Source: Dacryopinax spathularia
Lineage: Eukaryota > Basidiomycota > Dacrymycetes > Dacrymycetales > Dacrymycetaceae
Direction: 5' to 3'
DNA: 64,000 nucleotides
Assembly: GCA_037974965.1 (NCBI GenBank)
Contig: JBBPFI010000015.1
Location: 655,001-719,000 of the forward strand
Shown here: in pieces, positions 9,387-49,154 of the stretch
How positions within the stretch are numbered: position 1 is the stretch's first letter
How the letters are laid out: every line of letters begins with the position of its first letter
Notes under the pieces: generated by a model
Database searches by the model: none
The model's input: the letters and a program-made list of their open reading frames with translations, nothing else
Told to the model about the DNA's origin: nothing
Made by a program: the position numbers and the translations under genes

Positions 9387-9452
9387 GGTTAGGGTTAGGC
9401 CGTTAGGATTAGGGTTGGGTCGGTAGGGTTAGGGTTAGGGTTGGTGGTTAGG
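9387..9452 (+). repeat. Interstitial degenerate telomere-like repeats (TTAGGG)n
   Basis: About ten TTAGGG or near-TTAGGG units, several perfect and in direct succession, others with one or two changes. TTAGGG is the common telomere repeat of basidiomycetes. The array is internal, with at least 9 kb to the left and 54 kb to the right. Confidence 0.7.
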
Positions 9453-23558: not shown

Positions 23559-24498
23559 GATCAACCTCTATGTTGGGATAGCAGTACCAGGTAGCTGAAG
23601 GGGCTGAGTACGAACGAGCGATAGCAGATGTGTGCTAGTAGTCAGCAAAGAGAGTGGAGACAAGCGAGGAAAGACGAGACGGTGACGCGCCGATGCATTA
23701 CGCCTAAGCGTTACATTACCATATCACATCCCATCCGCGACGCGTCCCCTCACCGCGTCACGCTTTGCTTTTCCCCAAAAGCACCCGAACCACACTTCTT
23801 GAGTGGAAACAACCCACACGGAACCAGCGAAGCCTTCTTTCGTAGGAAACGCCGGTCGGCTCCGAGTTGGGCGGGAGGTGGGTGGCGAGCGGCTTTGACG
23901 TGCATGTGGAAGCTGGCAGGCCGCAGGCCATTCCACACTCGACCTCCAAAGGGGAGGAAGAACTCATCCTCCGCCTCATTATCCTTCAACCACACCCAGC
24001 AAACAGTCGGCAAGTAATCGGAAGCCGGCTCATCCGTTGACCACCTTCTCTCGACGTAAGAGAAGGAGGCGTCACTCCTCTTGGCTTCTTCGGGCAGACT
24101 CGCGTCATCTCGCCACCCATTCGCTGGTCGTTGTGCGGGAGACGTAAGGGACGACACCTTCTTCCTTCCTTCCTTCCTTCGTTCGTTCGTTGAACACGAA
24201 CAGGACACGAGTATAGCAATTGGCGTATTGCTCGTCTTCCAAGTTGTCCGCTGAGGACGGGATTGCTGCTTGATTCGTTACTACTACCTCGCACGCTACC
24301 GGGGTTACTCTAGCTGGCGTTGCCTGCATATCGGGGGACACGGCACTGCGAAGTGACTGGTTGTGACGACCTTCGTCAACTCGACTGCGCATCTCATCAA
24401 CCCGCCCACCCAAAGACTCCCACCAAAGCCCTCACCATCCATCACCACCCCTGTCACCCAAATCCCCACGAAAATCGCGTCCATCGCCCGAACGAACA
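23559..24498. promoter_or_regulatory. Divergent intergenic region
   Basis: Lies between the Cdt2-like gene (reverse) and the orphan at 24,499 (forward). It holds a short TTCC/GTTC tetranucleotide run at about 24,167-24,191. No gene supported. Confidence 0.45.
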
Positions 24499-27028: not shown

Positions 27029-27719
27029 TCACATCCCCGACGTGAGGATCCCCACGATCAGATTGTGTCGCTCCACACTGACGGTTACGGGCGCTAGGAG
27101 CGCTTCTGTCATTATTCGGTGCATGTCGATGGGTATGCAGTCCCGGCAGGTGAAGAAGAGGTAGATTACGAACTGTCTCTCACGTTAGCAGCCTCTTCCG
27201 GAGAATGAGGAGGAGGAGAAGGAAGAAGAGTAGGAGTAGGAGGAAGAAGAAGGCGCCCACCTCGGAGAGCAGATTCCACATCTTGATATAATTCTCCTTC
27301 CCCGCCTCCGCCTTCGGCTTCACACTCCTCAGCGCCGTCACGGCATCCGCCAACGTCGTCGCCGGCAGCTTCGGGTCCCACCTCTCGAAAACCGACGCTG
27401 TATACACGATCCCACAACTATCACACGGATGATTCTGGAACTGTCTCACTCCCCACACCCGCCGACATATCGAGCAGATATAGTGGTCTGGCTGGACACG
27501 CATCTCCCGGATCCGGAACGAGACGGAATGCATGATCGAGTTGGGGTCATGGGCGATGCGCGACTCGGCCATGTGCCACAGGAAGGAGTCGATCCAGCTC
27601 GTGTCGTTTAGGTAGATGGGCAGGTATTGCGGGATGGGGACGTCGGATTGGGCGCGCGTGGGGGGGCTGTTGGCGGACCAGAGCAGGCCGGGGATGCCGT
27701 TGAGCATCGATTTGGACAT
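27029..27719 (-). CDS. C2HC-motif orphan family, member A
   Basis: Unrecognised protein of 200 residues, one of four related genes in this window. Exons 27719-27261 and 27172-27029 with one phase-0 intron. Residues 82-99 form C-x2-C-x11-H-x-C (ICSICRR...HPC), a likely zinc site. The first exon ends MWNLLSE and the second starts FVIYLFFTCRDC, with the core FVI-x-LF-x14-ALLAP shared with members C (38,008) and, more loosely, B (35,790) and D (48,317). The intron falls at the same codon boundary in all four. No signal peptide; no domain I can name. The core of the second exon was predicted from the other members before I read it, which supports the model. A TATA-like CTTATAG lies upstream near 28,060. 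Confidence 0.75.
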
Positions 27720-28315
27720 TTGGGCTGCGAGGAGGGTAGGACGAGCGAGATGTACTGGGAGAGAGTCGGAGGTTTGGATACAGAGGTGAGCAGGTCAAGC
27801 AAAGCCTTGTAGGGGAGTCAGGCTCGACACCACATCGAAGCAGCACGCAGCATACGGCGCTTGCCGAACACCCCCTTCCCACGCAGGTAATTTCCGCTTA
27901 CAGGTACCGGATCACGCTGGACAGGACGCAAAGCAAGCGAGAGAGATGATGAGGCGCCTTCGCTGGGAGACCCAACTGGCCGAGACATGTGCAGCGGTTG
28001 GCTCAGGGATGTTCACATGATCCGTGGGAGGAGAGGGGAACGTGTCGGCGCGAAGCTGCTATAAGAGGGAAGTGGAGACCCTATTGTTCGGAGTATTGTC
28101 AGCCATTCTTGCGTAAGCAAGGCTGTAGAGTGCGCTGGAGTGTAGTCGTTTGTTGTGAATGAGGTGCAGGGAGAAAAGGCTCTTCTTTCTCTTCCGATCG
28201 ATCTATTCGTCCTCAGCCAGAAACCTGAAGAGCATCCAGCATTGTTTCATTTGTACCTCCTGCCGCAACGCGATCGTAGATCGGTCTTGCACACCCATCC
28301 AAACGACCCAGACCT
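27720..28315. promoter_or_regulatory. Intergenic region, 5' flank of family member A
   Basis: Lies between member A (reverse) and the end of the homoisocitrate dehydrogenase gene (reverse). No gene supported beyond a TATA-like element near 28,060. Confidence 0.4.
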
Positions 28316-29795
<1,480 letters not shown>

Positions 29796-30145
29796 TTTAT
29801 CCAAGAGATACCAGAAACAACAATAATCCCAGAAGAGGACGAGTTCCCCAGTCTAAGTGGAATTGTTGCAGCAGGAACCCTGAGGTGGAGAATTCCGCGA
29901 AATCAATTATATTACATAATCACACGGGCCCTGGCGTGTTCAGTCGTCGCTTACACCACCACCGCCAACGACGACGACGACGTGCACCCACCGTGGTCAG
30001 AGCATACACGCGTACTGTCGACAGCCAGCATCTCCTGCTCCCTTCTCTGCTTCTCAGACGCCATCTTTTGAGCTAGACTCTACCTTCGGTTTTTGGCTTG
30101 GATCCGCTGTGCGATCTTCGACCTTGCTGGGTGTAGGAAGGCGCG
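29796..30145. promoter_or_regulatory. Divergent promoter between LYS12 and ARL1
   Basis: A 350-base region between two start codons on opposite strands. No clear TATA box. Contains a short CAC/GAC triplet-rich stretch at about 29,955-29,985. Confidence 0.4.
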
Positions 30146-31023
30146 ATGGGACTATCATTCTCAAGCCTCTTCAATGTCCTCGCCAACTGGGGGAAAGAAC
30201 GTGAAGTACGGATCCTCATGGTCGGGCTAGATTCAGCAGGGAAGACAACCATACTATACCGATTACAGGTGCGTCCTCGTCTCTGCCTCGCTCTGACGGT
30301 ACTTGCGTGAACGTGGCTGACGTCAGCAATAGATCGGAGAGGTCGTGTCGACTATACCGAGTATGTGGTGCTTTGTAGAGAAGGGGAAGTGGGATGTTGA
30401 CTAACGGAGCGTAGCAATTGGGTTCAATGTCGAGACTGTGCAGTATAAGAATATCAAGTTCCAGGTGTGGGATCTGGGAGGTACGTCCCTAGTCCGCGTC
30501 TCCATACACCACGAACTGACCTAACGCCATAGGTCAATCAAGTATACGGTTCGTCCATGCCCCAATCGGACCGGAGACCCGTTGCTGACAGTGCTGGCAG
30601 ACCATACTGGCGCTGCTACTTCGCCAACACGCAAGCCATAATCTACGTAATCGACAGCAGCGACCACGCCCGACTCCCCACCTCGCGCGCCGAGCTGCTA
30701 ACAATGCTAAGCGAAGAAGAGCTCCGAGGCGTGCCGCTGCTCGTGTTTGCCAACAAGCAGGATATAAAGGGCGCCCTGAAGAGCGGGGAGATTAGTGAGC
30801 AGCTGGGGCTGGATAAGGAGAAGGGGAGACAGTGGAGTGTGAGGGGGAGCTGTGCGACTAAGGGGGAGGGGTTGGAGGAGGGGTTGGATTGGTCCGTCTG
30901 CTATTCTTTCTGTTCTTTAACCTTCCATCCCCTCTCTTCCACCATCTATCAATCTTCTCCTCGTTCGTCTCGTCAACATACTAACCCCGCCCCAGGCTGG
31001 TGAACGTACTACAAAACAAATAA
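30146..31023 (+). CDS. ARL1: ADP-ribosylation-factor-like GTPase Arl1
   Basis: Golgi small GTPase that recruits GRIP-domain golgins. Exons 30146-30268, 30333-30360, 30415-30480, 30533-30548 (16 nt), 30601-30891 and 30996-31023 give 183 residues. It starts MGLSFSSLF, so Gly2 can be myristoylated. The P loop is GLDSAGKTT, switch I ends [27 protein letters not shown] is switch II with the catalytic Gln, NKQD is the base-binding motif, and CATKGEGL is the SAK-equivalent. The [14 protein letters not shown] form and length fit Arl1 over Arf1. The microexon carries most of switch II, so skipping it would destroy GTP hydrolysis. Confidence 0.95.
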
Positions 31024-31741
31024 CCGCCTCGATCCCATCTCCCTCTCCTCTTCTCGCCCCGTCCCCATCACCTCACACGAGGCCGAACAAACCTTGCATA
31101 ACCCACGCCTACTATACCCGCGCTCACACCTCATACTCTCGGGGAAGACACGAGTGCCGCATACTTTTGCATGCATTGCAATGCTTTTCGTGTACTGGTA
31201 TTGTACTAATTTTACGCTTATTTTGGAGCTCACTCGTCGGTGTCGTCGTGATGATGGTGCCAAGTGCGTGCCTTTACGTGCGCTTGGGAGGAACAACATC
31301 ACTCGTGCTCTTGGACTCACTCGGACAATGGCGGCCGACGTCTACTCATCCCGACTTGGACAACAAGAAACCGCAATCGTAGTCTGAAGAAAGGTGCCAT
31401 ATGAACGCTCCCCTTTGTCATGAATTGATAGTTGCAGGCCCGTAGCACAAGAAAGGACACACGTACAACAAGTTCTCAAACACTGCTGAACAAACGAACC
31501 CAAGAGCGCGAAGAAACGATCGTCTGAGTCAAGACCGTGCTTGTGTCGATGTCGCGCGATGTGCGCCATTTCTGATTGTCGTATCAGCATGGCAACGCTC
31601 GCACGAAGTCCCTCAGATGCTCAGGACAAGCAGAGCGAGAGAAAAAATCCACCAACTGAGCTCGAATGGCCACTCACTCTCGCTGTCCATCGCAGTAGAC
31701 GGTGAATGTACAATCTCGGACGGCGGCAACATTGTGACAAG

Positions 31742-31834
31742 TGGGACAATGGACTCTGAGGAAGACAACGAGAACAATGGACCTAACGTTACAACAACGA
31801 TGTCGACTCTTTTGACTGTCACCCGACGGTCATA
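31742..31834. repeat. Degenerate direct repeat, copy 1
   Basis: Matches 32301-32392 over about 92 bases at roughly 70% by eye, including the shared strings ACGAGAACAATG and CAACGATG. Weaker matches on both sides suggest a larger old duplication unit. Confidence 0.55.
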
Positions 31835-32300
31835 AGATTGGGGTTTGCGTTACATCATCGGTGGACAAGGAGCGTGGTATCACCCTCTCTGTGAGGCAGC
31901 ACGGACCTGCGAGATGCTTTGGTTCCCGAATTGGCGATGTCACGCAGAGGGCCACGTTTCTACTACGTGTGAGCACAACATCTTCACGGACGCTGCCCTT
32001 TGTCCGGAATTGGCAGCTGCTGACGGTTGGTCGACGAAGGATGTCGGGGACGACGAGTCACAGGGAAGGACATGACTATTTGAATCACAAGCAACCGTCT
32101 GCCATTACGAAACTGCCAGCAACACTTTCACCGTTTGTGAGTGATTCTAGCAACTGAACAACCCTCATAGGCATAGAGTCCCTGAGACGCCGCGGCACAA
32201 GCAGAAAAAGAGAAAGCTTGGCCATCTGAGTCAAGGAGCCTCGTCTGGGTGCCGAGCGGCGGAATCCAGTGACGCCGGCGTTCTTGGATGGTGGCAGGAC

Positions 32301-32392
32301 GCTGGACAAATGGACTTCAAAAACGAACCAACGAGAACAATGAACCTGCAACGATGATATCGACCCCTTTGACTATCATCTGACGGCAGAGA
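32301..32392. repeat. Degenerate direct repeat, copy 2
   Basis: Second copy of the repeat at 31742-31834, about 560 bases further on and in the same orientation. On the minus strand a short frame with VKGVDIIV parallels VKRVDIVV in copy 1, so the unit may once have been coding. Confidence 0.55.
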
Positions 32393-35300
32393 GGGCCACG
32401 TCGCACTGCAAGGGATGGTCGTGCCGCGATATTTCCGCGCCATGTGCTCATCGTCGCCGCAATCAAGGCATCATCCGAGAAGGGTGACGCCGAAAATTTC
32501 CGAGACAAAATCCTCGGCTTCGTCAACTGTGGGCAACTGCTGCTGAAACTCGTTGATTAATTCCTCGCTCGATCGGGAACATGTCGACATCTGCTCCTGC
32601 CGGATGTTGCTTAATCACACGCTCGATCGGGAGCATCACACTAAACCTGTGCTGGTGGCCACCATCTTCGTCTCCCGGGTACTTCGGTCCGCCATGGACT
32701 CCGTACATATCCACAGCGGATCACCACGTATACTCAAGACTCGCGCGGCACGTTCCCTCTCCGCATGTAATGCCGTCCTGCCGCTGAATGCCCAAGCAAT
32801 CCCGTCATCAGACGATCTTATCAGACTAGCCATCTCCTGCCAGCTGCAGCACGACATCACAACTCTGCCAAACACGGAAATTGTGCAGAGACTGACATCA
32901 ATGGGCGGCAACGGCACCGGGACCGGAGAAGTAGATCATCCGGAGCAAGGGGCAGGCAGGATGCCAGACTTCACGTGCCGGCACGCGGTTCATATGGCAA
33001 CGTGCGGCGCTTCCGTACCTTCGCCCTGGGACTTCCCAAATATGCTGTTCGCTCGGCAATCCCTTCCCAATGTCCCATCCCTGCGCATGGATGGCTGTTC
33101 CCACGGGTTTGTACACCTGCTCGGGCCTCACGAAGACGTTAAATTTTCTTACATTGCGAAAATACAAACGAGTGCTCGAGGGGCACATCAGCGCTGGTCC
33201 CAGTCGGATTCTGACGGGCCGCTGCGCTGCGCTTGCCCGATTACACAGTATCGAGCCAATTACAGGCATCGCAACATATACTTTCGCCCAAACCAGCAGA
33301 ACCGCGTTTTGCTGTTCATTTTCGAGAGAAGCGCTGGAGGCATTCGCGGAATGTTGATGTAGCTCGATAGTCGGTCACTTGGCCGGATGGGCCGCTATCC
33401 GACGGCTTTAAAGTGTCACTACATTGTGCACTCGTTTGGTCGACCGCGATAAACAAAGCTTACTAACAGGCCTGCGCTCATCCTCCACCAGACACGTATG
33501 CCGGGGGCTCACAACTGCCACCCATGTGCGACGGGGACATGCCTAGGAGCATTCCAAATGACCAAACCGCCACGCTTCGCGACCCCCCAAGCCGTTCGAT
33601 CAGAAGACTGTGAAATTACATTCGTCCCGGAGCGCGATCGGCCACCATCAGATTCCAACTTGGGAAGCTTGACGCCATGAGCGGGTTCCTCTTTGCCACT
33701 CGGGTCTGAACGCTTTGAGGACTGCGTCTTTGGGGTTTCGCCAGAAGAAGTTCCTCTTCTCCCCGGAAGACTGAGAAAGAATTCTTGCCACTCGGCACAC
33801 GCGCCGCTAGATCAGAAGAGAGGTAGCCCAGTTCATGGGCCCTCCTTGCCTCACTCCTTTGGGAACTGATGCATACTACCACTTCCTCTCAGGCACTGAA
33901 TCAGGTGCTCGGGGGTCTCAACTGTATGCGAAATTCCATCTTGGCACGGCTTGCACGAATATTGCACAAATCCGCTTGCTCGCACCGATGGAGAGCAAGA
34001 CGTCCAGTCTTGCCGCCCTCAGTGGGCTCGGCACCTTACCCTGGTCCCGTTCTGGACTACCGGTGGACCCAAGGATAGCCCCCGGACTGTGCCATGTCTA
34101 GCGCCTGAAGGTACCCATCCGAGCTTACTGACACTGAAGTGAAACATCTAGGTACTTCCGGCAGCCCCATAGGGAAGGTAGGGCTAGCGAGGCTCTCGAT
34201 TACATTGGAACAAGGTTTCGGGGAGGGACTCGGCTGCGCTTATTCCTTGGCGAGTAATCGGGATGTCCGTATGTCCGATCGGGACCTACCGTGTGACGAT
34301 CGAAGATGAGACCTTCCGAAAATGTTCGAGCACAACATGACCGGAGTTAAGAGAAATTGTGTAACTCCGTTTCTGGGGGCTGAAGTACGCCTCCTATCGT
34401 TGGGGTGGGGCGAGTTGTGCGGCCGTCCGATGCCGATATCCGGCACTCGAAAATGAAGCGACCGAATAATTTCGCATCTTGCACTTTAGTCATGGCCCCA
34501 TATGTATACTGTCTCACTTGGCGAGCTTGAAGAACCGGGTTTAGCAAAGGGATCCCATCGTGAATTCTTGCTTTGGGCGCGGCTGCCCGGGGAAATTGAT
34601 TTGAATGATGGTAACAGATGGCGAAGATCTGCATACTGGCGGATCAGCTCGGTGGCCGCGGTTCATGAAGGCTGATGGGTCCCGGATAAGCCAACGCACC
34701 TTCCGGAATGTCAACACGCCGCTGGGTCGCCTGGATGGTGTGGCAACAAAAGGGTCGCAGGGGTGGTCCAGAGCTGACAATATTTACTTCAAGGTTCATA
34801 ACAGACCATCACATCTCGGCACAGCTTTCGCAACATATCAGGTTTGTTGTACGTTATAGCCAGCCAAAGATGTACTCGGACCGAGACATCTCAAACAAAG
34901 AATATCAAAGGGCGGCAAGGTGGCCTGGGCGCAGCATTGAAATTTTCTCCGCACGCGGCGGGCATGAGGTTGGCGCCGAATTAGAGTTGCCTTCCTGGAT
35001 ATTGCCAGATGGACCGTTCTGCTTCTTCAGCTGTCAGCAACAATACAATGCACTTACAGCAGTGGACCCCTCCACGCCCTTCCCAGGAGGCTTGGTAGCG
35101 AATCAGGAGGATGATGCGTAGGTCCCTCAGGCGATTGTATCCTTCCGCGCCATTGTCCTCCTCGACCATGCTTCCTATGGCCGCACTTTCCCCTCAGTTG
35201 AGACCCATACCTCCGCAACAATAGGCAAACCTAGCCTCCCCCAATTCTAAAATCAGACGTTCTCTTCTGTCTGAAATCGACATTCGGTATTGCAAACGGA

Positions 35301-35683
35301 GGATTTTCAACGGCTTGAGCGCGGACCACAACTGCGACACCGCACCCTTCGCGTACCTGATGGTTCGCGCTCCGGATCGAAGGCGATGGCGAGCGGACTT
35401 TGGGGGGAGTTAGTTGCCATCCCGGATACCCGACTGCCAGCAACATATCACATCATATCACGCTGCGGTCCGAATCGAGGGATGAATGGGATGGCCGCCA
35501 GTCATCCCCATCTCGTCCTCGTCCATCACCCCTCTCTCTCCCCCAGACCTCGGTTCCCGCATCTTCCCCCTGGGCCTCATCACACAGCTTCAACAGCTGG
35601 AGAACACGTAGCCTGCGCAGAGTTCGGGAGCTTGTGAACAGGCAGAATCCTGCCGCGTGACGCGCGGTCTGTGGGAAGAAGGG

Positions 35684-35694
35684 GTATATATATT
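35684..35694 (+). promoter_or_regulatory. TATA box of family member B
   Basis: TATATATATTG about 100 bases before the start codon at 35,790. Members C (37,911-37,920) and D (about 48,216-48,223) have TATA-like elements in similar places. Confidence 0.6.
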
Positions 35695-35789
35695 GGCCTT
35701 AGTCTGGTACGCCCACGGCCACAACGCCCGTCGACTACCCCTAATAATCTCCTTTCACAGTCGCGGCAACCGTCGAGTCATACGATCCC

Positions 35790-36419
35790 ATGAACAACAT
35801 GGTACAGGCCGCCCCCATCGGATCGCATATCTTCATACGGGTGGATCGGGATGCCGACATGCAGAGGTTCCTCGACGAGATTCGCGCTCGACGACTACCG
35901 GAGAACTTCCATCAATTGTGCAACCTCACTTCGTTCATGCTAGAAGATCAACGCTGGTCCTTGCATGGCACCTGGCATCGGTTGTGCAGGAGATGCGGTC
36001 GCTCATTCCAAGAGAATGCCGGTCAGCTGTGGGAGATGCACAACTGCGCGCCTGCATTCAAGATCAGCCTCATCATCAATGATGGCAACGGCAACTTCCT
36101 CGCGACTGCAGAGGAAGCCCTCGAAGACTTGAAGGAGAGGGCAGGCCGACTTCGCACGCGAGCTGCTTGGTTATTATGGGAACTTGTTTGCGAAGTACGC
36201 ACCCTTAGCATCTTGTTGTCAACTGTCTTCTGACCCAGAGTATAGCATGTCATCGAACTGTACCTCCAGCATTACACCCACGTTCCTGGCCTAAGCCTTC
36301 GCACCATCTTGGAACGGCGCCTCATCAGTCCTCGTGTGCTGAGAGCTGCGCCTCGACGGGAGGAGAGCTTGTGGAGTACGGTGGAGGAGCTCGAACCCGT
36401 GGGCGAGGACGAGGAGTAG
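35790..36419 (+). CDS. C2HC-motif orphan family, member B
   Basis: Unrecognised protein of 192 residues. Exons 35790-36194 and 36246-36419, phase-0 intron with donor GTACGC and acceptor TATAG. The likely zinc site is C66-x2-C69-x14-H84-x-C86 (LCRRCGR...HNC). Exon 1 ends LLWELVCE and exon 2 starts HVIELYLQHY, the same junction as in members A, C and D. The tail is acidic (VGEDEE at the end). It is 1.6 kb upstream of member C on the same strand, so the pair probably arose by local duplication, though they have diverged widely. A TATA box lies at 35,684. Confidence 0.75.
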
Positions 36420-36613
36420 TTCGATTGAAAGCTGGGCGACCAAGAGGAAGGTTCACTTCGAGCACTTCATGTACGATATTGACACTGTATGATACTTTCT
36501 GTAACTGTATGCAACACTTAGGACTTACATCGCGATTGTTCACGCAGTCTGGGTGGAATCAAGTCGCGTCAAATTTGTACTTGTCCTCATGCTGATATGA
36601 ATGATTGCAATCA
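36420..36613. other. Intergenic region
   Basis: 3' flank of member B; nothing else seen. Confidence 0.4.
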
Positions 36614-37114
36614 TCATCGCTCTGAGTGGACCAGCAGGGTAGCTACATAGCTATTGATATCGTTGAAGCAACCTGACAGGCAAAATAGAAATGGCCTCTT
36701 CAACAGGTATGCAGCTGCCTCTGCGGGAATGTTCGGGAGCTTCGGGTCAATCACGCTCCCAACTTCTTCGGGTGCTTTGCAGAAGGCTATCTTGACATTC
36801 GGGAGATGGCGTAAACATTGAAGGTCTGCCTCTGCCGAACAGAACTGTCTCTGATCAGTCGAGTCATGGGGTAGGAGCAATATGTCAATCAGATGACCGA
36901 TTGATGGTGATGGCCAGAGAGCCCCTAATCGCTGATACTGTGCCACTCCTCGGGCCAATGAGCGTTCAACATAGTCTGGATGCCAGTGAATCGGGCCGCC
37001 CTTGCTGGTTGGCTTTGGATGTTGCACCTCTATGGCCGTCACCTTGATGGAATGATGGCGTAGGTGGACATAACCCGGCCGTCTAATTACAGGCCCACTC
37101 CTCATACAATGCAT
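36614..37114 (-). CDS. Possible orphan ORF between family members B and C
   Basis: A 166-codon frame whose composition looks protein-like: PSIGHLIDILLLPHDS, then LRHLPNVKIAFCKAPEEVGS and LPNIPAEAAAYLLKRPFLF. I recognise no family. It may be the last exon of a longer gene, since the frame at 37,102-37,350 on the same strand is also open and ends near its start. No splice junction could be fixed. Treat as tentative. Confidence 0.35.
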   Translation of the reverse strand: MHCMRSGPVIRRPGYVHLRHHSIKVTAIEVQHPKPTSKGGPIHWHPDYVERSLARGVAQYQRLGALWPSPSIGHLIDILLLPHDSTDQRQFCSAEADLQCLRHLPNVKIAFCKAPEEVGSVIDPKLPNIPAEAAAYLLKRPFLFCLSGCFNDINSYVATLLVHSER

Positions 37115-38007
37115 GCTGCCGCCATAGTGAGTCTACGCAGCGGCGGCTGCCCCAGAGATACGGCACAAGAGCTGACCGCGTGCAAGATGAGGTAATAGGG
37201 GAAAATCTGACAGACAGGTGTCATCTGAGCTGGTGAATCCGGTGATCGATTTGCGTGCTCGGTCTTCCAGGTGGGCGGATTGCTCCGAGACATCCGTACT
37301 CCACCCATCTGTTTAATCAGCACTTCCATCGACCGTGGGAACGATGGCAACCCGCGGCCACGTCAATCTGACCAGCATAGTGTAGGGGTCGCTTTGGGAA
37401 GCAGAAACTGCTCGCACCGCACGGACCATCTCTGCGTAACGGACTCGGATGAGCAATCTGGAGGTGGTCGAGTCGCTACATTGTGCCATATCACACCGGG
37501 AAAAGACCCCCAGAATCTGAAAATTGATAGGACCATCTCGGATCGATCATATCTGATATTGATGGGGTATTCCATATAAGGCAAAGGCCGGCGGTTTTAC
37601 GCTCTTCGCGAAGACAGCGCGTCTATTCGGGTTGTCAGGCCAAGGACCCGGTTGAGACGGAGACGTGGTATGACTTGGCCGCAAAGCTCGTATAACCAGT
37701 AACCCTGCTCTTCGTACCGGCGGAGATGCAGTTCGGGCCATCACGGCGGTGCGCAGCGCATCAGGCAGGTCGCGTGGGAGTGTGCTTCGTGGTTCTGCCA
37801 GCGCATTGATCCGCTTTACCTCCTCCTGCTTATTGGGCCATGCTCGCCGAAATCCGTCATCATTTCTGTTTTTCGCCCTCGTATTCCGTATGATTGGAGC
37901 TTTCGCAACAGCATATAAACCGGACAGTATTGAGAGGGTTGACTGTGCTGAGACAAGCAACACAATAGCGGCCCCCGCCCAACTCCCCCTCAAACCTTAT
38001 TGCTCCG
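37115..38007. promoter_or_regulatory. Intergenic region with promoter of family member C
   Basis: Contains a TATA element (CATATAAAC, 37,912-37,920) about 90 bases before the start of member C. The minus-strand frame 37,547-37,993 crosses this promoter and is judged spurious. Confidence 0.45.
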
Positions 38008-38667
38008 ATGTCCGCCGTGAATGGGAACCGCCCGACAGCTCGTACTTCCGCCACGGAGCCGATCACGGAACACGTGGATGTTTACCTCGAAGGCGAACGC
38101 TACTTACGAACATGCATCGAAGTAGCTAATGCGATGGGCATCCCGCGGGCGCAGCCACCACTGAGCGAGGCAATCTCCTTCTGCGTTGCTGAGCAGGAGG
38201 TACAGCGGAATACCTGGATTTGCTGTCTTTGTCAAGGGACCTATACGCTCCATGGCTTTCACTACCATGTTTGCAGCTACGAGGCTGCGATCATGACCGC
38301 AACACTTCTCGAGCACACCGTACCGCTCCGGTATGTCGTGGCGGATTCGATAACAGCACTTCAATACCTGAGAACTGGGGCTTTGGTCGCACACAGTCCT
38401 TGGGCGCTGCTCATGTGGAAGCTGGTAACACAAGTGAGTGACAATACAGTTTGAGCACAAGTAGTCGGCTGATGGCTTGTCCAGCACGTAATAACGCTCT
38501 TCCTGACCTGCAGCCATGAGGTGGACCTGCCCATGCAACATATCTTGGACGAAGCTTTACTGGAGCCATCAATGGTTGCAGAGAATCAGATGCTGGATAC
38601 ATTGCAATCGCTCGTGCGGGAGCTGGAGGAGCATGAGAGCTATCAGGAAGAAGACATGTCAGAGTGA
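38008..38667 (+). CDS. C2HC-motif orphan family, member C
   Basis: Unrecognised protein of 202 residues. Exons 38008-38433 and 38485-38667, phase-0 intron with donor GTGAGT and acceptor TCCAG. The likely zinc site is C72-x2-C75-x11-H87-x-C89 (ICCLCQG...HVC), the same spacing as member A. Exon 1 ends LLMWKLVTQ and exon 2 starts HVITLFLTC; PMQHILDEALLEP then parallels IDMHRIMTEALLAP of member A. The C-terminus is acidic. Function unknown; no signal peptide or membrane segment. Confidence 0.78.
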
Positions 38668-39009
38668 TGGGATGGTTTGGAGAACGGCGGAAGGCGGAAG
38701 GCATGCAGGATCGGTCGCTGGCGGAGACGACTTCACGTGGGGTAGCGAGGGGATGGAGGACGAGCAGTAGCGGAACCAGCACGATACCCATTAATGTCGG
38801 TCACTGTATAAGCACAACAGCATGGACACTGACGGCAACGTTCCTAGATGATACCAGTTCGACGATACCGATACCGTCCTCCGATATCGCGACTCTCGCC
38901 AGTCCACACCCCCAACCCCCACTCCTCTTACACTCCGATTCTCGTGATGCAACATACCCACCAAACCCATCCGTACAAAACAACCTATTGTCGTACATCC
39001 CACAATCAC
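38668..39009. other. Intergenic region between convergent genes
   Basis: 3' flanks of member C and phospholipase D. Nothing recognised. Confidence 0.45.
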
Positions 39010-42000
39010 TCAGAGGTACACCGCCATGAACGGGTTGTACGTGCTCCATTGCGTGCCTGATATTAGGTCGGTCTCCTCGATCAGGAAGTCGAGAGGGCTC
39101 TCGACGACGTGTCCGCGGACCTCTGTAGTTCTGATCAGCCCCAACCGGAAAGTCGGAAAGACAGATGACATACGAGATAAGCGAGTCTTGATCTGCTCCA
39201 GCGTGACGTCCGGTGCGACGTGTCCCGGCAATGTATGCGGTACGAATTGCTGTCACGCATCATGGTCAGGCAAAGGTTGGAAATGCGGATCTGGAAGGGA
39301 CTGAAGCGCACCTTATACTGCCCGAAGTTCCGCACCTGATCATTCGGCACCGTCCTAAACAGCTCCGTGAAGATCTCCCTATTCGTCTTCGCCGTCTTAT
39401 TCCACAGTTCTTGGAAGCTGTCCGATAATGGGTCAGCAACGAGGTCGTCTTCCGGCTGGCCGAGCTCGTTGTCAAGCGGGATGGGCGCGGGGTGCATGAA
39501 GCTCGTTACAGGCTCGTCTCGGTCGGAAGGGCAGTTTTGGGGAGGGATGAGGCCGAGGTGCTCGCGGAAGAGCTTGCGCCGGAGGGTGGTTGCGAAGCGG
39601 GCGACCATGTGCTGGTGCGCCGTTAGCACCTCCTCCAGGAAGACATCAGAGGACCTACAGGGTGTCCATCCATAGTAGACTTGAACATATCTGTGTCCTC
39701 CACGACCAACGCAATCTCGGAATCACCATCACCACGCTGTGATCGATCGTTAAAGTTCGCGCTGCCCATCTGGACAACAGTCAATCTTGCATCACAACGG
39801 AGATGGGAAACAATGGTACGCACGATGACTCTGGTATCATCCACAATCATCAGCTTCGAATGTATGTAAATCTCCTCTGATACGTAACTACCCAGATTGT
39901 CAGTTTTAAAGTCCGACGTTGGGAAAGGGCAAGATGCGCACCAGCTTTTCTCCTCCTCCTCCGACCCCAGCCACTTCTCATCCTTCAACTCCGTCTTATC
40001 CTGCAACGCATGCTGCCCGACCGAATCCGCCACAACAGCATCATGTTCCACCTCCGCCGCTTCCTCAAACCGTCTAATAATCTCCTTGGCCTCGTCGACC
40101 GTATCGGGCGCTTTGATCTCGACAAGCTCGACATTCTGCTGCGTCGCGCCCAGGTTCGCGTCGTCCGCTGTGTCCGCTTTGGGGACCGCCACGGTTACGG
40201 TCATCGTTTCGGATTTTCGGTCCTCGCCGGCCCAGATACGCGAGAGGGCGACTTGCGCTTCGCGGAATGTGATGCCCGATTTTTGCTCCATGCGCTTGAT
40301 GAAGGATTTTGGGGCGCCGATACGGTCGTACCCCCGGAGGTGGTAGATCCGGATGTACTCCGTCCTGTCACAAGCTCGTTAGCACTTCGCCACCAACATC
40401 CATACCTCTATCGGCACGACCGCCATCATGGTAGAGGGGGAGGCGTGGAAAGCGGACTCACGGATCATACCCCGCCCTCCTAATCTCCTCATAAATCGAG
40501 TGCCCACCGCGATTAATAGTCCTATAAGTCGCGCCCAAGATATTCTTCAACGCGCTCTGCTCCGCAATGTTCCCCGAGAACCCCGGTACTTCGGGTATGA
40601 CGACCATCACCTTGAACTTGCGCCCGTCCCGCGCGGCCTGGAGGATCCGCTCGACCAGGGCGCGCGCAATTTGGTTCTTGACGGGGCCGTCGGAGGTCGT
40701 GTTGGATATACTGGGTATAAGGGGTCAGTATGGCTGAGCTTTAGCTTCGAAAAGTGCGTGCGCACAAGAATTGGTTCTCTGCCGCGGGTGTCAGCTAGGT
40801 TCTGGGATTTTGCTAGGGCCATGCTCACCAATATAGATGAAGTGGTTCGCTTCTTGGATGAGCTGGATGTCTAATGTAGGCCGTCAGCTACTCCGGCCGG
40901 AAGGGGGACAGATCCTGGACGACTCACAGGCATTCTGAATACTGTGTTCTGTCAAGACGCCATGACTCCAATCGCTCACACTCCTCACAACCTGCACCCT
41001 GCACGTCCCGACCGGCGAATGTCCGTCCACCGGATCTGGAGGAGCTTGCGGCCCAAGCCAGCGCTGATGAAACCTCCTCCCGAGCTCATGGAACGCCTCC
41101 CTATGCGGATGCCTCGCAATCGGCTCGTTCGGCCCCACTTCCTCCGGCGTGTGCGGGAAAGCGAGCACGTCGTACCGCCTATCATGCCGGTATTTCCGGT
41201 GTCGAACCTCGTTCCACCGCTCGACGAAGTGCTGCACTACGTCGAGCACTACGGGGCCCGTGAACGTCATGTGCGTGTCGTGCCATGGCATCCGGGGGGT
41301 CTCGAGCAGGGAGACGGCGTTGGAGGTATAGTGGTCGACAGCCTGGAAGTCGAGAATACGGGCGTTGTTGTAGTCCTGGCCCGGGAACAACGTCCTTTCA
41401 AACCGCGTAGGGTGTACATCCGCCATAGGACTAGCATCACACATCCCAAAGTCAGAAAAAGCTGCATATATGCGCGTAAAGGGGAAGAGACGGACTGATT
41501 ATGCGTGTCCCACCGCCCGAAACAGGCGTCAAGCCCTCCTACCGCCGCGCGCAGGTTATCAACCACCACGACCTTCTCGTGATGGCTCCAGAACTCGACA
41601 TCGTCCACGGTACCAATATGATCCGGATGTCGCATCACCGCGATATTCTCGTGCAGGTCCTCGAGCGCGTGCTTGGTGTGGTGCGAGGACATGCTCATCG
41701 TCTGCGTCACTTCTTTGTACACGATTATGTACACTCGGACGCCTTCGCGGGCCTTTCGGGCGAGGAGTCGGTCGAGGCGCCATTCTGGGTGCAGGGCGGG
41801 AGGTCGACGAAGGTAGAGCTCGGGGGAGAGCCACCAGTCGAGGATGAAGATGTGCGAGCGGGCGGAGTCGAGCATTTCGGAGAGGGCGTAGAAGTAGTCG
41901 TGCCCGTCTATATGCCTGCGCAAGCATCAGCTCTGCCCCGTATCAATGGTAGGAGGATGGGAGAGGGGGGACGCACCACTTGACGACGTTCCTCCATCGA

Positions 42001-42380
42001 TCTACCGCGAAAGACCGAAACCGGTGCTGCGAGTTGATCTCATCCCGTATCCTGTCCTCCTCCTTCTCCCAAGCCTCATCATGTCTATGGTTCGGATTCC
42101 TACCAACTCATCAGCACTCACCCACCTTGCCCTCTCGACAACCCAGAGGCTGCAGGCAAGAGGGCGGCAAAGGAAGAGGGACGCACCACTTCCCCTTGAT
42201 CTCCTGGATCGCATGATGCGCGATCTTGCTCACTATGTTCACTTTGTTGTGGGTCCGCACGCGGGCTTGGTCCAGATCATGTTGTAGGCGCTTGCGGAAA
42301 TGTCCGTGTTCATGATGCTCGCCCTGTTGATGATGAAAGTGGTGTTCTTCGCGGGGTGAGTCGGGGTCGGAGTCGGACAT
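39010..42380 (-). CDS. Phospholipase D (PLD1/Spo14-type catalytic core)
   Basis: Hydrolyses phosphatidylcholine to phosphatidic acid and choline. Thirteen exons: 42380-42187, 42099-41977, 41915-41496, 41430-40928, 40870-40829, 40778-40766 (13 nt), 40710-40462, 40364-39942, 39887-39824, 39769-39659, 39611-39312, 39249-39174 and 39122-39010, giving 876 residues. The first HKD motif is HHEKVVVVD, with [11 protein letters not shown] after it and NHPMADVHP across a splice. The second is HSKLMIVDD followed by [32 protein letters not shown] between them crosses two introns and confirms the microexon. C-terminal [14 protein letters not shown] and [13 protein letters not shown] match the family tail. 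There is no PX or PH domain, so it is shorter than Spo14; the N-terminus is His-rich. Peripheral membrane protein. Confidence 0.93.
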
Positions 42381-43010
42381 GGTGCACCGGACGCTGGTTT
42401 GAAGCTGGAGATGCGGGAGATGTGCAGCGGGTACGAGCGTGTATAGGAACAGGAGCTACAACAACAGCAAGAACGGCGAGCTGGTATAGTACACGTATGA
42501 ACACACGCTAGTGTGTCTAACATCCCTCAATTCGGCATGCTGCGCCCGTTCTCCATCGAACCCTTGGCAAGCATCATCGCCGCCCTCCAACCGCTCTTGG
42601 CAGCAACAACCCCGGCAACATCGGCATCCCCCATCGCCCGTGAAAAACGCTTAACGGCCGAAATCGAAGGTCCCAAGCATTTCATTTCCGGGAATGAATC
42701 CCTCACGGAAAGGTTATGGAAATGAAGCGAGGACCCTGAGCTGGTGGGATGCGCAACCCGGACGGCACGACTCGACCATCTCTCCTTCGTCCAAGTTTGG
42801 ATATTCTAGCTTGCTGTCTTCGCTGTCCCTTGCTGATCACATTCAGGTGGTGGGCATTCAGAGATCGGGGATTGGACAATTGCCTGGGGCGAGCGTTGAC
42901 AGATTGGCCGCTGCCCAGTCGCTGCTCGATATCTGCTATCGCTCAAGGACGGTCACTGAGGAGCATACATAAGACGCTCTCTCCGGCTTGATTCGAGTGC
43001 AAGACCCACG
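42381..43010. promoter_or_regulatory. Divergent promoter between phospholipase D and ARG8
   Basis: A 630-base region between two opposite start codons. No clear TATA box and no gene. Confidence 0.4.
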
Positions 43011-44858
43011 ATGTATCTCTCCTCACAAGCCGTCTCAGCGGCTTCCCACGCCAGAGTCGTCGCTCCCGCGGCTCTCCGGCTGTCCGTACGGCCAATATCC
43101 ACTCCCACCGCCGTACGTCCCCTCTCTCCTTTGCCCTCCATCTCCAACAACCCGGCTGACCCTCTCCGCAGCCTTGCTCAAAGTTCCTCGCCGTCACCCA
43201 CCCCGAAGACCCCGCCTCGCTCGACCCCTCCATATCCCGCCAAATCGCGCGGTTCGACAGCGTGACCGCCTCTACCTACGCCCGCCCCCCGCTCATCTTC
43301 ACAAGTGGGTATGGTTCCTGGCTCCGCACGACTCACCCCCAGCGGGAGTACCTCGATTTCTCCGCCGGCATCGCCGTCAACGCCCTTGGTCACTCTGACA
43401 CGGGCTTCATATCCGTCATGGGCGACCAAATCGGCAACCTCGCGCACGCAAGTAATGTCTACTGGAACGAATGGGTCGGCGAGCTCGCCTCGCTCCTCGT
43501 CGGTCTCACGCGGAAAGAAGGCGGGCTAGGCTGGGCGCCGGACGAGGAATACGAGTTTTATAAGAGGGACAGCTCTTCTCATCTTCTTTGGCCACGGAAG
43601 TATACGGAGCCTGAGGAACCGGGGCTGCCCGTTCCGAGCGGGGCGAAGGTGTTCATTTCCAATTCTGGGACGGAGGCGAACGAGGGTGCTTTGAAGTTTG
43701 CCCGGAAATACGGGAAGGAGTTCTGGGCTCGGAAGACCGGCAAACCATGGGAAGAGAGCCCGAAGACGAGGGTACTATGCTTCGAGCACGCCTTCCACGG
43801 TCGTTCTATGGGCGCACTCTCAGCGACCCCGAATGAGAAATACCAAAAACCGTTCGGGCCGCTGGTGCCCGGGTTCGATGTGGGCAAGTTGAATGACCCC
43901 AAGAGCGTGGAGATGATCACGGAGGATCATTGTGCGGTTATTGTGGAGCCTATTCAGGGAGAGGGGGGGATACATGAAAGTGAGGTTGGCTGGTTGGAGG
44001 CGGTTAGGAAGAGGTGTGATGAGGTGGGGGCGGTGTTGATCTTTGATGAGATTCAGGTGCGTCCCCTTCACAACCTCTGTCGCTACAACTTCCCTCCGTC
44101 CTTCTCTCTCTCCCACGCCCTCTCTTGCCCTCTCTCTTGTCTTGAGAGGTATCATCTTGCTGACGCACGCAACAGTGTGGACTGTACCGTACCGGCTCCC
44201 TCTGGGCACACTCCAACTACCCGACCACCGCTCATCCAGATATAATAACCATGGCCAAAGCGCTCGGAAACGGGTACCCCATCGGTGGGCTCATAGTGCG
44301 GGACACGATCGCCGAGAGCGTCACACCCGGTGTACGTCCCCTCCTTGCCCTTCCTCTTTCCCAAAGGGAAGTTGTTAGAGACGCATGCTAATCCGTCCCA
44401 TGTAGTCCCATGGCACCACCTTCGGCGGAAACGTCCTCGCCGCCCGTCTCGCGCACTACGTCCTCACCCGTCTCTCCGACCCCAAATTCAAATCCACAAT
44501 CTCCCACCTCTCGCAAACCCTCTCAGCCCGCCTACTCGACCTGCCCAAATTCTTCCCCTCGCTCATCTCGTCCGTCCGGGGCCGAGGAGCGATCCGCGGA
44601 ATCGGGTTCTTCGACCCTGTCCATCCGGCCAAGGTGGTCAGGATGGCCCGGGAGAGGGGAGTGTTGTTTTTGACCGCGGGGAAGGACGCGATTCGGTTTG
44701 TGCCGAGTTTGAATACGGGGACGAGGGAGGTGGACTATGCGATGGACGTGTTGGAGAGCTGCTTGGTTGTGCTGGAGGGAGAGGGGGGGGGGACAACAAG
44801 GCGGAGTGAGGTTGCCGGGGGATGCGATTTGAGGGGGATGATGAAGAACTATGTGTAA
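43011..44858 (+). CDS. ARG8: Acetylornithine aminotransferase
   Basis: PLP enzyme that converts N-acetylglutamate semialdehyde to N-acetylornithine in arginine synthesis. Exons 43011-43112, 43172-44056, 44176-44331 and 44406-44858 give 531 residues. The first exon is Ser/Ala/Arg-rich, as expected of a mitochondrial presequence. Motifs: YLDFSAGIAVNALGHSD, SNSGTEANEGALKFARKYG (PLP phosphate), FHGRSMGALSATPNEKY, IVEPIQGEGGI, LIFDEIQCGLYRTG (Asp to the PLP ring, split by an intron), and MAKALGNGYPIGGLI with the Schiff-base Lys. Longer than yeast Arg8 (423): an extra stretch of about 35 residues (YEFYKRDSSSHLL... region, residues about 190-230) sits before the SNSGTEAN motif. The tail after VLESCLVVL is also extended. 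Confidence 0.9.
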
Positions 44859-45112
44859 CTACGTGGGTATTTTGATCTGTTCCGTTTTGTTTTCTTGCTT
44901 CAAGGCCGGCTCGACGGCTGAGGGATGTTGGGCTCAGCGCCGCAAAAATAATAGACAACAATTGCTCACGACCATTGCCTGACCACGGATCCCAGTGATC
45001 GGCACGCATATAGACTTCTGAGCGGTGATTATAATTAGACTATACACTATCTCGCCATCGTAGCGTACAACAGACTCCCACATGCAACGGTGCATACATA
45101 CAGCTGGTTCGC
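44859..45112. other. Intergenic region between convergent genes
   Basis: 3' flanks of ARG8 and GST copy 2. Nothing recognised. Confidence 0.45.
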
Positions 45113-45938
45113 TTACGGCGTCTTAGCAGCCTCAGCCCTCGCCTGAATAGCCTTCCTAACCTCGACATCCTTCTCCCGTGCAGCCTTTATCGCAGGTCGG
45201 CCAAGCATAGCGTTGTGCCACCTTCACTCCCCCCACATTAGCTTGGTCCCAGACCGGACGGGTAAGGATGGACGTACCGGAATACGGAAGGGAACTTGGA
45301 CTGCACGTCGTAGGACGCGCCGAGGATCATGCTGAAGGCTAGGTCTGTCCATGGAAGGAAAGCAAGGTCGGCGATGGTCATCCTTCCCCCTACCAGCCTG
45401 TGACAGTGACAGCATTTGCCCGCGTCAGGGCGAGAAGCCAAAGCCGGTAGATGGAGAGAGCGTACCACTCCCGCTCCTTCAATACGCTTTCCAGGACTCC
45501 AAGCACTCTCTCCGTCTCCCTATAGTACCTCTCCACGGCCGAGGGCACTTTCTCCGCGTGAAAGAAGCTAAATATGAACCATTGTGCGAAATAGGGCTGC
45601 TGCCCCGAAGCCTGGAAGAAGAGCCATTGATCCTGTTCCGCCTTCTCCCTTTCCGTCGCCGCTGACAGCCTATGCTCGAGATCGTATCGCTCAGTCAAGT
45701 AGAGCAAGATGGCGTTCGACTCGAATAGGGTGAAGTTGGAGTTGGAGTGGTCGATGAGTGTGGGCACTCGGCCATTCGGGTTTAGGGCGAGGTAGGTGGG
45801 GGTGCGGTGTTCTTGTGTGGCGAAGTCGAGTAGGATGGGTTCGTAGGTGAGGGAGAGCTCGGACAGGAGGAGAATCACTTTTTGGGCATTGGGGCTGGAT
45901 TGGTTAGTGTAAAGGGTGAATTGTTTGCCGTGCGACAT
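45113..45938 (-). CDS. Glutathione S-transferase, Ure2/GST-N type (copy 2)
   Basis: Paralog of the genes at 2, 56 and 58 kb; 233 residues. Exons 45938-45466, 45397-45278 and 45221-45113. The first exon is exactly 473 nt, as in all four copies, and ends inside the same Trp codon. It begins MSHGKQFTLYTN; the glutathione site has NPNGRVPTLIDH and FESNAILLYLTERYD, with Phe where the other copies have Trp in W/F-ES. The helical half has DQWLFFQASGQQPYFAQW. The most diverged copy, with SSPNAQKVILLLSEL near the start and an Ala/Arg-rich C-terminus. A TATA element (ATATAAGCC on the minus strand, near 46,005) lies about 65 bases upstream. Confidence 0.93.
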
Positions 45939-46379
45939 TGTTGGAGCTTTGGATGATGTTGCTTGCTCTTCGAGCGATGTTCACCTGCCCCTTTGAAGGC
46001 GGCTTATATGCATCCTCAGGTCCGGGGTTGACTCATGTCCAACCGCTGTAGGAACAGCCGTGCCAGAGAGCAACGCAGTAAGTCCGGCATAGCTTATAGT
46101 GATCCACGCAGAGCGCCGACCGTGGACAGTTGGTCCCAGACTGTCATGACTTCGACTTGGTAATGTCAGGAGGAGGGGGCAGCGCCGAAGTAGGGGACCG
46201 CGTCGTGTGCATTCCGCGCATACACGCGTCCTCACCACCTTCGCATGCCGGTCATCGCGGCGACTTCGAGTGCATAGCGCTCACCGAGAATATACAACGC
46301 TGTGAGTCATGTCCATTGCCTAGTTGTGAGATGGATGAACTGAGGGGGTTTGCTGGACGGCAGGGCGTTCTACAATAGC
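45939..46379. promoter_or_regulatory. Divergent promoter region
   Basis: Between GST copy 2 and the orphan at 46,380. Carries the TATA element of GST copy 2 near 46,005. Confidence 0.45.
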
Positions 46380-46970
46380 ATGGCTGCGGCCCGTAACGAG
46401 ATCCCGCACGACCCCTTCACCCCCAACACGCTCTACATCGCCATCTACAGCCGCTACGACAATGACGTCGAGGTCAAAGACCTCGGGATGATGTTCTGCG
46501 CCGTAACCGCGAACGCGGGGACGTACTTCATCGCTCAGCAGCGCAAGTCCGACGGGAAGTACATCCTGAACATGACGAGCGACTATCCTCCGGGTATGAC
46601 GATCCATGGTTGGTTCCCGATTGGGTTACGGCCGGTCGAGTATAAGGAGACGACGACGGCGAACGGGAATGTGAACGGTGTGAGGCGGGACATTACGACT
46701 GAAGAATCGTGGTTATGGACGGCAAGGCTGCTCAAGCAGTTCGGCATGAATCGGTGGGGCAAGCCGAGCAGCATCGACTGGCCAGCCGTGCGGTCGCTCG
46801 TCATCCCGAGGATGTATACGATGTCCCCGCAGTGTATCGTCGAGATGCTGGATAGTGTCCCCGGGCTGAGAGAGGAGCTCGGCTGGTCGGACGAACAGGT
46901 GCAGGAGGTTAAAGAGAAGGCCGAGAAGCAGATGCAGATGGAGGCGGATCATGCTGTTGTTCAGGACTGA
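46380..46970 (+). CDS. Orphan protein, function unknown
   Basis: An uninterrupted 196-codon frame with good codon regularity. It starts MAAARNEIPHDPF, then NTLYIAIYSRYDNDVEVKD, a beta-rich middle (FCAVTANAGTYFIAQQ), ESWLWTARLLKQFGMNRWG, a stretch IDWPAVRSLVIPRMYTMSP, and a charged helix at the end (EVKEKAEKQMQMEADH). No signal peptide or membrane segment. The order LYIAIYS, beta region, W-rich helix and ID-x-(P/G)A resembles the shorter orphan at 11,685-12,083. A link to small fungal proteins of unknown function with a similar start is possible but not shown. ATG at 46,380 used; the frame is open further upstream without another ATG. Confidence 0.6.
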   Translation: MAAARNEIPHDPFTPNTLYIAIYSRYDNDVEVKDLGMMFCAVTANAGTYFIAQQRKSDGKYILNMTSDYPPGMTIHGWFPIGLRPVEYKETTTANGNVNGVRRDITTEESWLWTARLLKQFGMNRWGKPSSIDWPAVRSLVIPRMYTMSPQCIVEMLDSVPGLREELGWSDEQVQEVKEKAEKQMQMEADHAVVQD

Positions 46971-48316
46971 TGTATTATGCAGAGTATACCATATCTACCG
47001 AATCAAGAAAAGAAGAAGTGCTCACTCCTGTCGATCTTTCCGAACTTGCGAAGTTATCTCATCTCTGCGCTATTCTGATGGTCTTACCAATGAGTCTTTG
47101 TCGCACGCTCTATTCACCTGGACTTCTCCGGCTGCCAGATACCGGATCATCCCGCTCCGATTCTCCCAATCGGTTGCACATATTAAATCAGAGGGCTCTA
47201 ACTTCAACCCGAATCCCCGCATATCAGCCAACACAGCAGAAGCTGGGTATATGCCGAGCGCTGCGCACACGACACCCTCACGTGCCGTATTCTTCTCATG
47301 GAACCCATCAGCTACTACTCTATCCAGCATCATCACTCACCATCTGTAGTCGGAACGTCCCGTCCACTCGGAGCTTGCCACGGAGACAGAGCGGACTTCC
47401 CCTTCCTTGCGGCGATCTAATCCAGATCTGATCAAGACGACGGAAGCGCCGCCGCACGTCGGAGTCCGAACCTTCCAAGTCGTGCCGCACTCCGAGCTTG
47501 CTTGACTTCCACACTAGCCAGAAAAGGAGATCGACCGCTTATTTCCCTACTGTCGACCTGCGGTGGATGGCAACGTTTGTTGATCAGAGTGAGATCAAGG
47601 TTTGATGCTATGCAGATGACGGGGGGAGATAAACGCTTACTCGCCGAGCTTGTCGACAATGGGACACAGCTGTGGCCGCCTATGTCCGCTCGCACTGGCA
47701 GCGGCACTTGTTCCGGCTGGACATGCTTTCTGCTTCACTTACGAGAATGCTCTCCACCGGGGATGGTACTTGACTGCGCTCCAAGGCGACGACGTGGTCA
47801 TTATTCGGGATGCTCCACGATCGCTACAGCAAATGGTGCGTGCCGCCTCCCGAAGCAGACGGCGACTCTTCGCCATCGCTCGGCGATGCTCTTTCGGAAG
47901 CCCGGTACCTTCCCCGGCACTCCTCACGGCACACCCATCCCACAACCCGGGGAATGACGCGCCCCCATCTTCGCAATCTACTGCGCTATCCGCCGCCCGC
48001 GCACAACTTCTGATGGCGCGTCTGATCCTTGATCACCACTTTCCATCTCCGGCGAAAGGCGCGTTGAAGCCCCTGTCTCGGACGGTCTCGATCCACCGGA
48101 CGCTCTCCGTCTCCACCCTGCCCAGTGATGGCCGGCCAGGTACATGGCGCTGGGGCTGAGGAGTGCGGCGCTAGACGCCACATCTTGCGCAGTAGCGGCG
48201 GGGCGGCCACAACTCGATATAATCCCCTCTCCATCCGCTCTGTCCTGTGAAACCCGCCTTGGTCTGCAACAACTCCCCCTCTTCCGAACTTTCAGCACCA
48301 CTCGATCGGGCTCCCG
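46971..48316. other. Gene-poor stretch upstream of family member D
   Basis: Two long overlapping frames (47,502-47,957 and 47,650-48,159) contain protein-like patches such as RGWYLTALQGDDVVIIRDAP and HWQRHLFRLDMLSASLTRML, in different frames. I could not build a spliced gene from them. It may hold an unresolved or decayed gene. A TATA-like GATATAAT lies at about 48,216-48,223, before member D. Confidence 0.4.
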
Positions 48317-49154
48317 ATGCGTCCCTCTGACTCCTACTCCCACTTCCACGCCCACGCTCATGGCTATGAGCAGCCCCAATACAGAGTAGAGCACCACGTC
48401 CTCTCCCTCCTCCACCCCTCCTCCCTCGCCCATTTCCTCTCCCGCGCCCAGCAGCTCCACATCGACCTCTCTGACCCTTTTCAACTCTGGTCCGCAACCG
48501 CGATCCGGACATGGGACCAACTCGTCACGGACGACATCGGCTTCTACTACTTCTGCGTGCGGTGCGAGGATTCCCCCACGCGCGAGGAATGGGCGGCGGG
48601 ACACGAGTGTATGGCAGGTGAGGGTGTGAGGCTAGGGGTGGAATTTCTCGTTCCGCCATATGAGAAGAAGAGGAGGCAAATGGACGGGTTTAGGGGAGCG
48701 GGAACCGGGACGGGGAGGAGGAGGGCAAGATTGGGCCCGGGGCAGGATTGTGCGGATCTGGCGGGGGCGCTGAGGCTTGCTAGGCTGGTCTGGATGGACC
48801 CGAGCAGGCCTGAGGAACATAGACGGATGTGCGAGATTTTCGCAAAGGTCTTGAGTGTCGTGAGTTTCCCCCTCATCCTCTCCCTCTCCTCTGTTCCTCT
48901 GTTCCTCTGTTCCTCTGTTCCTCTGTTCCTCTGTTCCTCTGTTCCAGCGAAAGAATGTGCTAACGCTGATGGCATCACAGCACGCTCTGGCCGTCTTCCT
49001 CCCCTACCATCCGATTTTCTGCCCCATCGATTGGCGCCCTTTCCACGAGGAAGGGCTGATCCACCCCGAGATCGCGCACCGGTACGGGCGCGAGCTGGGC
49101 GAGAAACTGAGGGCGCCGGGGAGGGCGATTACGTTTCCTTGCGAACGCGGGTGA
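48317..49154 (+). CDS. C2HC-motif orphan family, member D
   Basis: Unrecognised protein of 238 residues, the most diverged member. Exons 48317-48859 and 48981-49154, phase-0 intron. The likely zinc site is C80-x2-C83-x12-H96-x-C98 (FCVRCED...HEC). Exon 1 ends EIFAKVLSV and exon 2 starts HALAVFLPYHP; ID-x-RPFHEEGLIHPEI then follows the pattern of the other members (ID-M-HRIMTEALLAP in A). Insertions in exon 1 include a His/Ser-rich start and a basic Gly/Arg stretch (GAGTGTGRRRARLG). The intron carries an 8-base repeat array as its pyrimidine tract and a CTAAC branch-point-like site near 48,959. Confidence 0.7.
48891..48945 (+). repeat. 8-bp microsatellite (CTGTTCCT)n in the intron of member D
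   Basis: Six full copies and one partial copy, with no variation, placed upstream of the branch-point-like CTAAC. Confidence 0.9.

Follow-up and report, generated by a model that had tools for sequence, protein, structure and literature searches.

Four paralogous small genes of Dacryopinax spathularia share an intron and a probable C2HC zinc finger

The window analysed here, a 64,000-nucleotide stretch of the Dacryopinax spathularia genome with a GC content of 56.8% and short introns, carries four small two-exon genes, A to D. Their coordinates and their single phase-0 introns are as proposed in the initial annotation, and splicing produces open proteins of 200, 192, 202 and 238 residues. In the following lines, exon 2 includes the stop codon and the branch-point motif is placed relative to the end of the intron:

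27029..27719, reverse strand: gene A, 200 aa; exon 1 27261-27719, intron 27173-27260, exon 2 27029-27172; CTAAC 11 nt upstream
35790..36419, forward strand: gene B, 192 aa; exon 1 35790-36194, intron 36195-36245, exon 2 36246-36419; CTGAC 11 nt upstream
38008..38667, forward strand: gene C, 202 aa; exon 1 38008-38433, intron 38434-38484, exon 2 38485-38667; CTGAT 11 nt upstream
48317..49154, forward strand: gene D, 238 aa; exon 1 48317-48859, intron 48860-48980, exon 2 48981-49154; CTGAT 10 nt upstream

The introns measure 88, 51, 51 and 121 nt in A, B, C and D, respectively, and in all four a CTRAY branch-point motif ends 10-11 nt short of the 3' end of the intron. As a background, such a motif lies 9-16 nt before 118 of the 3191 YAG sites of the window. 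In-frame stops occur in the introns of A, B and C (two each in B and C), and the intron lengths of A and D are no multiples of three. GC3 exceeds GC2 in each of the four genes. When the four proteins are aligned with MAFFT, with the introns unmarked, column 207 holds the final exon 1 residue of every one of them, which upholds the claim of a conserved, phase-0 intron position for splice sites that were taken from the earlier reading and chosen by eye, further GT-AG pairs being present. Judged from these features, the introns look real. Chance open reading frames and spurious introns were considered as well, and are rejected in view of the coding bias, the branch points, the common column 207 and the motif count given below. 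The gene models and their common intron are regarded as shown. The intron of gene D also harbors, at 48887-48945, a perfect 7.4-copy TCCTCTGT microsatellite.

Each exon 1 encodes a C-x2-C-x(11-14)-H-x-C motif, with residue positions and spacer lengths exactly as first described:

27423..27476, reverse strand: finger of A, residues 82-99, C-x2-C-x11-H-x-C
35985..36047, forward strand: finger of B, residues 66-86, C-x2-C-x14-H-x-C
38221..38274, forward strand: finger of C, residues 72-89, C-x2-C-x11-H-x-C
48554..48610, forward strand: finger of D, residues 80-98, C-x2-C-x12-H-x-C

Among the 1343 stop-free stretches of at least 30 aa on both strands of the window, this motif has four matches, and these are A, B, C and D themselves; residue shuffling predicts 0.325, a comparison slightly biased in favor of the four genes since the spacing range was set from them. 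The motif is more than chance. In an alignment cut tightly around it (A8), four of 82 columns are invariant and hold C, C, H and C, which is in part a product of the tight cut; the MAFFT alignments A4, A6 and A7 and several other settings misplaced motif parts of B or D. The conserved Cys/His pattern is embedded in a hydrophobic one, [YW]-x-C-x2-C-x3-[WYFP]-x(4,7)-[FW]-x(2,3)-H-x-C, readable in A, C and D and, with Arg in place of the first aromatic residue, in B; the second aromatic is replaced by Pro in D. Zinc binding by A–D, as the initial annotation supposed, is likely in view of the four invariant Cys/His columns; the models of the site itself are of low confidence and stop short of a confident ligand-site structure.

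Among known zinc domains, the motif resembles, and yet differs from, the classical C2H2 finger, whose ligand pattern is C-x2-C-x12-H-x(3-5)-[HC]. A and C share with it the arrangement aromatic-x-C-x2-C-x3-aromatic-x4-[FW]-x2-H. None of A–D has the classical ligand pattern, however: all four end in H-x-C instead of H-x(3-5)-H/C, after spacers of 11, 14, 11 and 12 residues, an ending that is uncommon among beta-beta-alpha fingers. A model of the zinc region (pLDDT 66.1, pTM 0.44) built, like that of exon 1, from an unspliced exon piece contains a strand (4-8), helices (12-23 and 30-34) and a strand (37-41), followed by two strands (50-53 and 59-61) that flank C-x2-C (53, 56) and a helix (62-67) that precedes H-x-C (68, 70). 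If real, this beta-beta-alpha order would be a further likeness to the C2H2 finger. The model is in line with such a finger preceded by a strand-helix-strand module and is too weak to serve as proof. Foldseek comparison of the zinc-region model with PDB and BFVD gave no match at E ≤ 0.001; the exon 1 model (pLDDT 43.7) was too poor for a structure search.

No Pfam family matched the four spliced proteins at its curated cut-off. Below threshold, the ESCO acetyltransferase finger zf-C2H2_3 (PF13878) aligned with residues 90-110 of A and with none of the other three proteins (E 0.095; 13 bits, cut-off 27), and DJ-1_PfpI (E 0.14) and Mad3_BUB1_I (E 0.15) were found in C. The zinc regions gave NDUF_B8 (E 0.11), the CSL zinc finger Zn_ribbon_CSL (PF05207; E 0.13, not significant, in one of the four regions) and, as the sole C2H2 model listed, zf-C2H2_6 (E 0.97), which at 10 bits falls far short of its cut-off of 25. 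Sequence searches of PDB with protein C and with profiles A4 and A8 returned nothing significant. The 37 sub-threshold PDB matches of A8, many of them near-copies of each other, include 15 to the C2H2 finger proteins Kaiso, CTCF, SALL3/4, ZBTB20, ADR1 and PRDM9 (best E 0.15), along with eight T-cell receptor chains and further unrelated entries. The first of them, at a non-significant E of 0.088, is the LIM protein paxillin (PDB 7qb0). LIM domains have eight ligands and two zinc sites, whereas only four ligands are conserved in A–D.

The four exon 1 products likewise found no family in PHROGs or NCBIfam, so the statement that A–D contain no known domain holds for Pfam and PDB and, as regards exon 1, for these two collections. 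A search of viral contigs with gene C gave no pattern match, and one of prokaryote genomes with gene A gave 14, none of them a relative; because these collections are non-fungal, absence from them says little. The family could of course already be named in fungal databases, either as a domain of unknown function or as an annotated regulator absent from the libraries used. Pfam-A was the nearest usable test among libraries that cover neither fungal proteomes nor UniProt, which leaves some room for this alternative; against it stand the lack of any Pfam match at the curated cut-offs and keyword searches of the open-access literature in which none of the titles listed described such a family, and we consider it rather unlikely. 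A–D are best described as a true set of paralogues that carry a probable C2HC zinc finger and are nameless in the libraries searched. A basidiomycete protein family that lacks a known domain has counterparts elsewhere: a study of mushroom-forming fungi reports 158 conserved unannotated gene families in Coprinopsis cinerea that are developmentally regulated (PMC10949477). The same study presents snb1 as a predicted seven-helix membrane protein, and in this respect it is unlike A–D.

Hydropathy in A–D peaks at a Kyte-Doolittle mean of 1.63 over 19 residues, which makes a membrane helix unlikely. The pI values of the whole proteins are 7.7, 5.9, 4.8 and 7.0 for A, B, C and D, respectively. Together, a hydrophobicity of at most 1.63 and a pI range of 4.8-7.7 lean towards contacts with protein over contacts with DNA. 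This bears on a second alternative, in which A–D would be sequence-specific DNA-binding regulators whose finger and basic neighbors touch DNA, the acidic tails at the ends of B and C acting on transcription. The finger regions of A and B are indeed basic (pI 8.2 and 8.7), and D has a Lys/Arg-rich linker after its finger. However, C and D have finger regions that lack this basic character (pI 7.0 and 4.4), B and C are acidic as whole proteins, neither A nor D shows an acidic tail, and a single finger is seldom enough for specific DNA binding. We regard this alternative as unlikely and, as a conjecture, rank a small intracellular interaction protein first and a DNA-binding regulator second.

Upstream of the genes, candidate promoter elements are present in three cases:

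35685..35694, forward strand: TATA box of gene B, starting 105 bp before the ATG
37914..37919, forward strand: TATA box (TATAAA) of gene C, starting 94 bp before the ATG
48218..48223, forward strand: TATA-like TATAAT of gene D, starting 99 bp before the ATG; outside the TATAWA pattern and identified by eye

The expectation for TATAWA is 0.012 per 60 bp. Gene A has no TATA box within 400 bp upstream. The elements found hint at regulated expression of some members of the family.

That A, B and C are homologous is borne out at the level of their protein sequences. BLASTP gives 77 bits for A-C, 40 bits for B-C and 26.6 bits for A-B, with no significant pair for D. Leave-one-out HMM scores are 71.1, 37.1 and 84.2 bits for A, B and C, respectively, each reached by none of 1000 shuffles (hmmsearch scored 741, 684 and 806 of the 1001 sequences in the three runs, and unscored ones were counted as lower). 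Identity among the three is only 19-27%, and D has diverged further; this may reflect age or the fast evolution supposed in the initial annotation. Exon 2 opens with [FH]-[VA]-[IL]-x-[LV]-[FY]-[LF], of which the initial annotation had the first three positions right, followed by four free positions and a Leu that needed correction. The later core reads [IF]-x3-[ARG]-L-[LI]-x-P, with three residues in the spacer, not five, and Ile or Phe at its head; the remainder of it stands. No fifth member was found among the 1343 stretches of the window with profiles of A–C and A–D, whose best unrelated matches had E values of 0.51 and 0.72. The common descent that had been put forward for all four genes is accordingly strong for A–C through BLASTP and the leave-one-out HMMs, and depends for D mainly on exon 2 and the intron position.

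It is conceivable that D does not belong to the family and resembles it in motif and intron placement by chance. As a whole protein it has no significant score: against the A–C profile it obtains 1.5 bits, which 12 of 1000 shuffles attain, and with the AC, AB and BC profiles 62, 11 and 102 shuffles of 1000, respectively, do as well as D. In a test of exon 1 over 41 sites, D comes first outside A–C (apart from a second site in A), barely, with a score just above background (24.3 vs 20.3). Exon 2 gives a far clearer answer. Among 1476 acceptor sites, each with 29 open codons after it, D scores 29.0 and the next unrelated site 12.7; only A, B and C (42, 35 and 52 with self left out) and one site inside exon 2 of B lie above it. 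Its intron junction occupies the common alignment column, and it is one of just four motif matches in the window. A chance resemblance is improbable on these grounds, and D is very probably a member of the family with A–C.

The genes are interspersed with unrelated frames. Pfam was run on 152 stretches of the window in three sets, and 150 of these stretches are identical to entries among the 235 stretches of at least 105 aa. Neighbors with a Pfam name include the following:

28319-28885: isocitrate/isopropylmalate dehydrogenase frame (end), about 0.6 kb from gene A
30.5-31.0 kb: Arf GTPase
39.6-41.9 kb: PLD-like frames, the first below the cut-offs and the second above the PLDc cut-off
43.2-44.2 kb: aminotransferase class III
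45.4-46.0 kb (45393-45980): glutathione transferase
51 kb: riboflavin kinase

Between the Arf frame and the PLD-like frame (30.9-39.7 kb) lie 26 open stretches of at least 105 aa. Fifteen were tested singly and gave no Pfam match; the remaining 11 include B and C, for which the spliced proteins were searched instead. One frame in this interval, also free of Pfam matches, starts with a tandem pair of 54-nt repeats that are 72% alike (32528-32635). A 719-aa open stretch on the forward strand (24367-26523) has no Pfam match at E 0.001, and an overlapping frame opposite to it has a weak SOBP match below the cut-off. Scans of the window with Rfam and with ARAGORN (bacterial code) were empty, and a degenerate GGTTAG/TTAGGG telomere-like repeat array occupies 9387-9452. 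The glutathione transferase N-terminal domain was found in three of the 53 frames scanned in 45-64 kb and in one of the 52 scanned in 1-24 kb. The one such frame tested is Ure2p-like, with PcUre2p4 and PcUre2p6 as its best PDB matches, where Pc presumably stands for Phanerochaete chrysosporium; these frames are perhaps a second local gene expansion.

Four scattered, diverged copies amid unrelated genes, together with the frequency of small zinc domains in mobile elements, might suggest a transposon or virus protein adopted by the host, yet such an origin is highly improbable: the region 26.8-49.5 kb contains no inverted repeats and, as direct repeats of at least 25 nt, only the intron microsatellite and one 54-nt pair, and therefore bears no sign of a recent mobile element, the common intron kept in A–D means that they are no retro-copies of spliced mRNA, and PHROGs (exon 1), viral contigs (gene C) and BFVD (E ≤ 0.001) gave no match.

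Based on the above data, we propose that one small intracellular protein gave rise to A–D as four old paralogues, by local duplication in a basidiomycete. In the proposed architecture, an N-terminal module of strand, helix and strand would be followed by a single C2HC finger that has the beta-beta-alpha, C2H2-like hydrophobic spacing and takes H-x-C as its last two ligands. Zinc would keep this finger folded. The part of the protein that follows is predicted to be mostly helical, and the conserved intron would cut an apparent helix there. The protein may act as a small interaction adaptor or regulator, with the finger and the C-terminal helices docking on a protein partner. The adaptor role is conjecture; small intracellular single-finger interaction proteins that arose by old local duplication and dock on a protein partner are the best explanation at hand, which we hold tentatively and at slightly less than an even chance. 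A wider reading, which we find possible and a little more doubtful, is that A–D represent an undescribed basidiomycete family with a helical tail and a zinc domain of its own, in which H-x-C would close a beta-beta-alpha finger joined to a strand-helix-strand module. Such a family would have expanded locally and diverged while keeping the metal site, the intron and the helix after that intron.

A–D make up a genuine family of an ordinary kind that apparently has no name, and by itself the finding settles no open question. Were it confirmed, a family with a small zinc domain would join the many unnamed families of mushroom-forming fungi, and the four genes would illustrate how much paralogues can diverge around an intron and a metal site that stay fixed.
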